Assembly (NCBI GenBank): GCA_903851235.1
Contig: CAINNR010000035.1
Span: 1-49,731 of the forward strand
Origin: an uncultured Candidatus Berkelbacteria bacterium
GTDB lineage: Bacteria > Patescibacteriota > UBA1384 > XYA2-FULL-43-10 > CAINNR01
Reading direction: 5' to 3'
Length of the DNA stretch: 49,731 nucleotides
The notes beneath the pieces are model-generated. The model ran no database searches and was not told where the DNA came from. It worked only from the letters and a program-made list of their open reading frames with translations. Numbering within the stretch: position 1 is the stretch's first letter; every line of letters starts with the position of its first letter. This document shows positions 33,181-34,156 of the stretch, one piece after another. The position numbers and the translations under genes are program-made.

Positions 33181-34156
33181 TTGATACCAGTTTACCAAAG
33201 GTTTGGAGTTCCTGGTATGCTTTCGTTCGTGGCAAGAATAAAACGCCTGATTTAGAAGAATTTACTTTTCATTTAGAAAACAATTTATCTAAGTTGCACA
33301 AAGAAATTAAAAACGGGACTTACAAGCATGGCGAATATCGAATATTCACTGTTTTCGAAAACAAAAGACGGGAAATCTGCGTGGCTACGATCCGCGACCG
33401 AGTTGTCCATCGCCTTCTCTACGACTATCTGGTGAATATTTACGACAAGACCTTCATTTTTGACGCTTGGTCGTGTCGAAAAAACAAAGGTCTGCTCGAC
33501 TGTATTTTACGAGCGCAAGAATTTCTGCATAAAAGTCCTCGATTGTTTGTTTGGCGAGCGGATATCAAGAAATTTTTTGACAACGTCGATCGCGATGTTC
33601 TTTATAATATTTTGAAGCGGAGGGTAGACGACAAAAATGCTCTTTCCCTCCTTTCAGAGGTGATCAGGCTGGCCGCAGGCTATCTCTCTCTCTCTCTCTC
33701 TCTCTCTCTCTCGATTGGCCCAGCCCAAAAGGCCTACCAATCGGTAATTTGACCAGCCAGATTCTGGCGAATGTTTATTTAAACGAATTCGATTTTTATG
33801 TTAAGCACACGCTAAAAATCAAAAACTATTTGAGATACGGAGATGACTTTATATTTGTCGAATCCGATCTTGGGATTTTGAAGACAAAACGAGAGCTGGC
33901 AGTTAAGTTTTTAAAGGATTTTCTGAAACTGGAAATAAATCCCAAGAATGATGTAGTTATTAGAACACAAAAAGGCATTCATTTTCTGGGCGTCGAAATT
34001 TATCCTAATGGCCGTAGACTATCGGAGCGCAACTGGCAGAAAACACTGAACAAATTAAACAGAGAAAATTACTCGAGTTATTGGGGAATTGTTCAGCAAC
34101 ATTGTGATTTGAAGAAACAAAAGCATTTGGAATGGGAATTAAATAAATTATCCTAA
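33168..34156 (+). CDS. DGR reverse transcriptase, frame interrupted at a (TC)15 tract
   Basis: ORF1: ATIRDRVVHRLLYDYLVNIYDKTFIFDAWSCRKNKG...RADIKKFFDNVD; after a frame change: GLPIGNLTSQILANVYLNEFDFYVKH...LRYGDDFIFVES...GIHFLGVEIYPNGRRL. Confidence 0.9.
33683..33712. repeat. (TC)15 dinucleotide microsatellite inside the RT gene
   Basis: 30 nt of uninterrupted tctctc between ggccgcaggcta and gattggccc. Confidence 0.98.

Follow-up and report, generated by a model that had tools for sequence, protein, structure and literature searches.

Diversity-generating retroelements (DGRs), both those of the Bordetella phage BPP-1 type and those of Patescibacteria clade 2 (PMC8144416), comprise a reverse transcriptase (RT), an accessory variability determinant (Avd), a template repeat (TR) and a variable repeat (VR). 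All of these are shared by the element described here, which was found in a stretch of 49,731 nucleotides (hereafter the window) from an uncultured Candidatus Berkelbacteria bacterium. The likeness extends to the confinement of sequence changes to positions opposite template adenines, to the 3'-terminal position of the VR in its target gene and to the fold modelled for the RT of a relative, which matches the solved structures 8ub7 and 8ubd. The element differs in that Avd is divergent from the RT, in the window as well as in other Patescibacteria, and in that the reading frame of the RT is set by a hypermutable repeat, a feature absent from the DGR papers that we searched.

Frame setting by a repeat is the hallmark of simple sequence repeat (SSR) contingency loci, such as the poly-G loci of Campylobacter and Neisseria and the tetranucleotide loci of Haemophilus. 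There, as here, the repeat lies within or at the start of an open reading frame, changes in the number of units shift the frame, and about one third of the alleles are in frame and two thirds out of frame. The known loci, however, mostly switch surface structures or methyltransferases, whereas here the switched gene would be a targeted mutator, and its carriers are not pathogens but CPR bacteria and DPANN archaea. Repeat changes in mutL constitute a reversible mutator switch, in which slippage turns the supply of mutations up or down; in that case it is the genome-wide mutation rate that is altered, whereas the supply considered here would be aimed at one target gene. For a repeat tract that switches a DGR mutator no precedent was found in the literature searched. 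The first-pass annotation of this DNA likewise knew of none, and our search, made for the most part outside subscription papers and preprints, returned no publication that joins DGRs with slipped-strand mispairing or describes a DGR RT switched by repeats. A possible precedent, a hypervariable repeat gene in a Gracilibacterium (PMC6851277), was considered and rejected, since the repeat there is a coding 9-mer of a surface protein and no DGR is present.

The DGR of the window and its TC tract

The TR (32704-32824, plus strand, 121 nt) and the VR (32240-32360, plus strand, 121 nt) differ at 18 of the 34 template adenines and at none of the 87 non-adenine positions, and this VR is the only one in the genome for this TR. 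The confinement of the changes to adenines, with the 87 other positions the same, indicates that the element has been active, and recently enough for no other decay to be visible. The VR lies at the 3' end of a gene (29272-32379, plus strand) whose product of 1035 aa contains an AAA_5 (MoxR/dynein-related) ATPase domain, the only domain found by the Pfam search; the AAA gene initially proposed as the DGR target is indeed one, with the VR at the C terminus of the protein. Avd is encoded on the minus strand (32830-33180), divergent from the RT, and at its ATG it overlaps the start of the RT gene by 13 nt. It was matched by bAvd PF22296 (E 2.7e-9, 37.9 bits, below the curated cut-off of 40) and, over its full length, by NF033474 DivGenRetAVD (E 1.1e-15, 57.9 bits, below the curated cut-off of 80). 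A profile of the relatives of the window RT matched the DGR RT of PDB 8ub7 with E 2.9e-73, group II intron RTs scoring far lower. The genome holds a second complete DGR on contig C33 (L074), with an open, tract-free RT, its own Avd and its own TR/VR; this RT could in principle act in trans on the DGR of the window.

The upstream neighbour of the target gene (26623-29262, plus strand) encodes a transglutaminase-core protein with a MIDAS-like DKSGSMS stretch seen by eye; the Pfam search gave no vWA match in it. In the MoxR-vWA conflict systems a MoxR-type AAA gene adjoins a vWA gene (Kaur et al. 2020, PMC7159879), and the transglutaminase/MIDAS-like gene together with the VR-bearing MoxR-type AAA gene may represent such a system with a DGR-diversified ATPase.

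Within the RT gene lies an uninterrupted (TC)15 microsatellite of 30 nt (33683-33712, plus strand), in the loop before GLPIGNLTSQ, where its product is (LS)n when read in frame. The ORF of the out-of-frame allele (33168-33752, plus strand, 194 aa) represents the N-terminal half of the RT, corresponding to positions 18-192 of the RT profile built in the present analysis, and its stop is 40 nt past the tract. The C-terminal half, from GLPIGNLTSQ through YGDD (33713-34156, plus strand; second ORF 33749-34156), is read in frame +2 with respect to the N half and corresponds to profile positions 196-350, and PF00078 was matched by both halves. The tract, the two ORFs and the break between them are thus as the first-pass annotation had placed them, and its prediction for a shorter allele also holds on translation of the altered lengths: 14 units (n = 2 mod 3) give a complete DGR-type RT of 328 aa with GLPIGN and YGDD, whereas the assembled 15 units give the product of 194 aa that ends ahead of both motifs, and 16 units one of 193 aa. 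The length of the tract is far beyond chance expectation. The exact (GA/TC)8 pattern occurs at a single place in the whole 1.04-Mb genome, which is the RT tract, and the runner-up dinucleotide run in 551 kb, about half of the genome, is 11 nt against 30 nt.

A broken frame may simply reflect decay, the RT being a pseudogene and the tract a neutral microsatellite expansion allowed by missing mismatch repair. A full RT is impossible from the assembled allele, MutS was not found, and the RT of a close relative (G006, from a different family of the same order) is open and has only a short CT run at the tract site, which implies that the tract expanded or else shrank in that relative. Comparison with this same RT (identity 86% in the N half and 85% in the C half), however, gives dN/dS of about 0.10 and about 0.06, respectively, values that point to purifying selection on both halves of the window RT. 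Besides the frame break at the tract, no further inactivating mutations were found in the window RT, and the complete agreement of TR and VR outside adenines also speaks against a dead element, the alternative that had been named when the tract was first noticed.

Nor can much weight be placed on an assembly or consensus error, in which the real allele would be an in-frame (TC)14 and there would be no switch. Dinucleotide tracts are error-prone, repeat lengths in the consensus of a metagenome-assembled genome (MAG) can be wrong, and the draft assembly consists of 39 contigs. Even at n = 14, however, a hypermutable tract in a frame-critical place would remain. Moreover, independent MAGs from many projects carry tracts of many lengths and units in all three phases, and an error in one assembly would leave the pattern of the survey described below unexplained; we regard this explanation as very improbable.

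Recurrence of tracts in Patescibacteria and DPANN archaea

Comparison of homologous RTs, proposed in the first-pass annotation as a check, revealed GA tracts in relatives at the same site as the window tract; their lengths differ, and all three phases are represented. When 84,980 genomes were scanned for (GA)6 with the RT motif coming within the next 30 nt, 47 loci were obtained, with RT on both sides of the tract in every case, and all 47 came from MAGs of Patescibacteria/CPR or from DPANN-type archaea (Pacearchaeota, Nanoarchaeota and one titled only 'archaeon'); viral contigs yielded no match to the GA-plus-motif pattern. The frame is open at seven of these loci and shifted at the other 40 (L077, the same locus as L011/L130, was counted as broken), the +1 and +2 shifts being about equally common.

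This distribution bears on the possibility of recoding, in which slippage of the RNA polymerase or the ribosome would yield some full RT from every allele, at a low constant level and with no heritable switch. Such an effect is conceivable from general knowledge, as a long (CT)n would let the leucine tRNA re-pair 2 nt on and poly-G can cause transcript slippage. With about half of the off-frame alleles shifted by +1 and about half by +2, and with in-frame alleles present as well, no single frameshift direction has been kept, however, and the units, sites and lengths of the tracts vary freely. Recoding appears to us improbable under these conditions.

The RTs are also the main location of long GA tracts within the genomes. 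In 41 genomes (the window genome and 40 relatives), 18 of the 25 separate (GA)8+ tracts lie within DGR RTs; the other seven comprise two upstream of DGR-target-like genes, one in HsdS, two at secreted-protein gene starts and two in intergenic regions. The two tracts of the first kind (L057:3017-3047 and L059:2134-2158) are situated just upstream of genes whose product ends are DGR-target-like (FWSATE...YQVRCVR type), which suggests that the targets, and not the RTs alone, may be phase-variable. The HsdS-like type I restriction specificity subunit of a related genome contains a 19-nt GA tract (L058:1569-1587), and the starts of the two large secreted-protein genes and the two intergenic regions account for the remainder (L060:2341-2359, L061:1159-1176, L055:2361-2379 and L056:2371-2389). 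One contig begins within the CT tract of an RT (L057:1-28), which indicates that assemblies break at such tracts, with the loss or splitting of RTs in annotation as a possible consequence.

In a survey of Patescibacteria that was blind to the tract, RTs at the class and phylum levels were found through their C-terminal half alone (profile A1) and the upstream DNA was then fetched, a tract being defined as a dinucleotide run of at least 12 nt, a G run of at least 9 nt or a tetra- or pentanucleotide array. Tracts were present in 100 of 149 full-length DGR RTs (about two thirds), spread over 53 of the 62 families and 68 of the 84 genera among the best phylum matches listed, a share that may be somewhat high since profile A1 was partly seeded with tract-bearing RTs and the phylum set consists of best matches; survey RTs of one genus are dependent counts. 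The single case noticed at the outset is now a general pattern. The units seen were poly-G, GA, TC, AC, GT, tetramers and pentamers, the commonest kind being poly-G on the N-terminal side, and the tracts were located in the loop before GxPxGN, at two other internal RT sites or at the meeting point of the divergent genes for Avd and RT. By hand count, DGR RTs contained roughly a third of all G9+ tracts in 12 genomes that had been picked for their poly-G RTs.

On the RT tree (FastTree, support values unused) the tract type changes at least 25 times among the tract-bearing RTs, which means that the tracts arose repeatedly; the differing units and sites lead to the same conclusion and do not fit decay. 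We rejected the idea that the tract serves as a constrained sequence or RNA, since its unit, strand sense and site vary between RTs. MutS above the cut-off was detected in none of the 41 genomes, compared to 11 of 14 control genomes, and slippage is therefore probably frequent and fast. Absent repair alone provides no explanation of the location, since tracts occur in the RTs yet hardly beside them: at the same loci 94 tracts were counted over 159 kb of RT sequence, and in the 146 kb flanking it, which a neutral expansion should also have reached, one poly-A run.

Among viral and plasmid DGR RTs a tract was found in 3 of 93 (Fisher p = 4e-26 versus the survey RTs), and among the viral ones any tract was found in 3 of 80. 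Neither dinucleotide nor poly-G tracts were present in the 13 plasmid RTs (from cyanobacteria, proteobacteria, Chlorobiota and Bdellovibrio), two of which are followed by a 16-nt trinucleotide run. In most of the plasmid DGRs fetched, Avd and RT are on the same strand, unlike the divergent order of the Patescibacteria. One IMG/VR contig classed as viral (L274) carries a DGR RT with a 98-nt (AGAC)n array near profile position 178. The RTs of G011 (L374:6995-7405) and G037 (L375:13645-14052) are devoid of the whole N-terminal half, the remainder starting almost exactly at the tract site, and no N half for them was found in 17-19 kb.

At 156 of the 162 surveyed loci with a detectable Avd, this gene is on the strand opposite to the RT, and the 5' ends of the two touch or overlap. 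The N-terminal tracts at loci where Avd was detectable, 62 in number, are all situated at these meeting 5' ends, and 60 of the 62 fall within the open frame of Avd. Some poly-G junction tracts (e.g., that of L166) are followed by no in-frame ATG, and such a tract must then belong to the RT reading frame; other poly-G tracts are 1-44 nt ahead of a possible ATG. From this layout, one junction tract may affect the RT, Avd or both, acting through the frame or through the promoter/5'-UTR.

Reading frame, selection and tolerance of the loop

The state of the frame depends strongly on the presence of a tract within the gene. A mid-gene tract is present in 34 RTs, of which 25 are interrupted at that point and nine are open; of the 115 RTs that have none, three are broken and 112 open (Fisher p = 8e-18). 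The proportion of 25/34 off-frame agrees with the two thirds expected from random phase (p = 0.47). Differences in length were seen for other units too, an AC tract being 27 nt in L237, where the RT is open, and 28 nt in L261, where it is broken, and a poly-G tract being G10 in L210 and G12 in L223. Two Wolfebacteria MAGs with GA tracts of 71 nt (L075) and 35 nt (L086), both in the off state, gave dN/dS of 0.11 and 0.09, so even this off/off pair appears to be still under purifying selection. Pseudogenes should not behave in this way, nor should they be free of second lesions, of which there were none in the 34 RTs with mid-gene tracts; we consider decay to be highly unlikely.

The same data make it possible to evaluate a split RT, whose N and C halves would be translated separately and would assemble into one enzyme. 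The two halves are conserved and adjacent, as such an arrangement would have it. Inspection by eye, however, gave no recurrent start for the C half, the sole candidate in the window being a TTG within the region of the GLPIGNL motif; relatives with an in-frame tract have RTs of a single chain, and the break follows the tract and not the RT family. A two-chain enzyme is thus extremely unlikely.

The AlphaFold model of the L110 RT, whose GA tract of 35 nt is naturally in frame, shows a mean pLDDT of 90.9, and its best Foldseek matches are the solved DGR RT 8ub7/8ubd (TM 0.76-0.84). The tract (residues 195-204) falls into a low-confidence loop extending from about 183 to 205, which is the sole poorly ordered part of the model and includes the sole segment below 50 pLDDT (183-191). 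Together with the natural in-frame alleles, whose tracts range from 13 to 38 nt, this indicates that the loop before GxPxGN tolerates changes of length, as had been supposed for the Leu-Ser stretch of the window RT.

Probable random switching of targeted hypermutation

We estimate at roughly 85% the probability that a DGR is switched by the TC tract acting as a contingency (phase-variation) locus, which is the reading first put forward from the window sequence and is now favoured by tracts that vary in length and phase between homologues and recur in Patescibacteria and DPANN archaea. Slipped-strand mispairing in replication would add or remove TC units; a full-length DGR RT would come from alleles with n = 2 mod 3, and a truncated protein lacking the catalytic YxDD from the two remaining phases. 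In the on state the RT and Avd would use the TR to rewrite the VR of the AAA target, and in the off state the current target sequence would be retained. Cells and lineages would drift randomly between the two states, the switching probably being fast. The same design has arisen many times, in most Patescibacteria DGR RTs and in some DPANN archaea. We infer that the tract length changes within populations, that the truncated RT product is inactive and that tract switching is adaptive.

From the comparative data we conclude that selection probably keeps a slippery tract in DGR RTs for the random switching of targeted hypermutation. It also seems likely that phase variation is the standard form of DGR control in Patescibacteria and some DPANN archaea, which would make targeted hypermutation heritable, reversible and mostly off in these organisms. 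To our knowledge, a limit on DGR activity that spares good variants from rescrambling is not known for most DGRs. If the proposed switch is real, lineages would turn the mutator on, sample variants and slip back off with the new target kept.

The DGR clade 2 restricted to Patescibacteria showed below-average activity in published read data (Roux et al. 2021, PMC8144416), which is consistent with a mostly-off switch, and a switch by repeats could explain why this clade looks less active in metagenomes. It could likewise explain the splitting or missing of such RTs by gene callers. The length and phase of the tract should then vary between cells, and the VR diversity should be higher where in-frame reads are commoner. 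In ultra-small, probably host-dependent cells with no detectable MutS, two kinds of local hypermutation would thus be stacked one upon the other.
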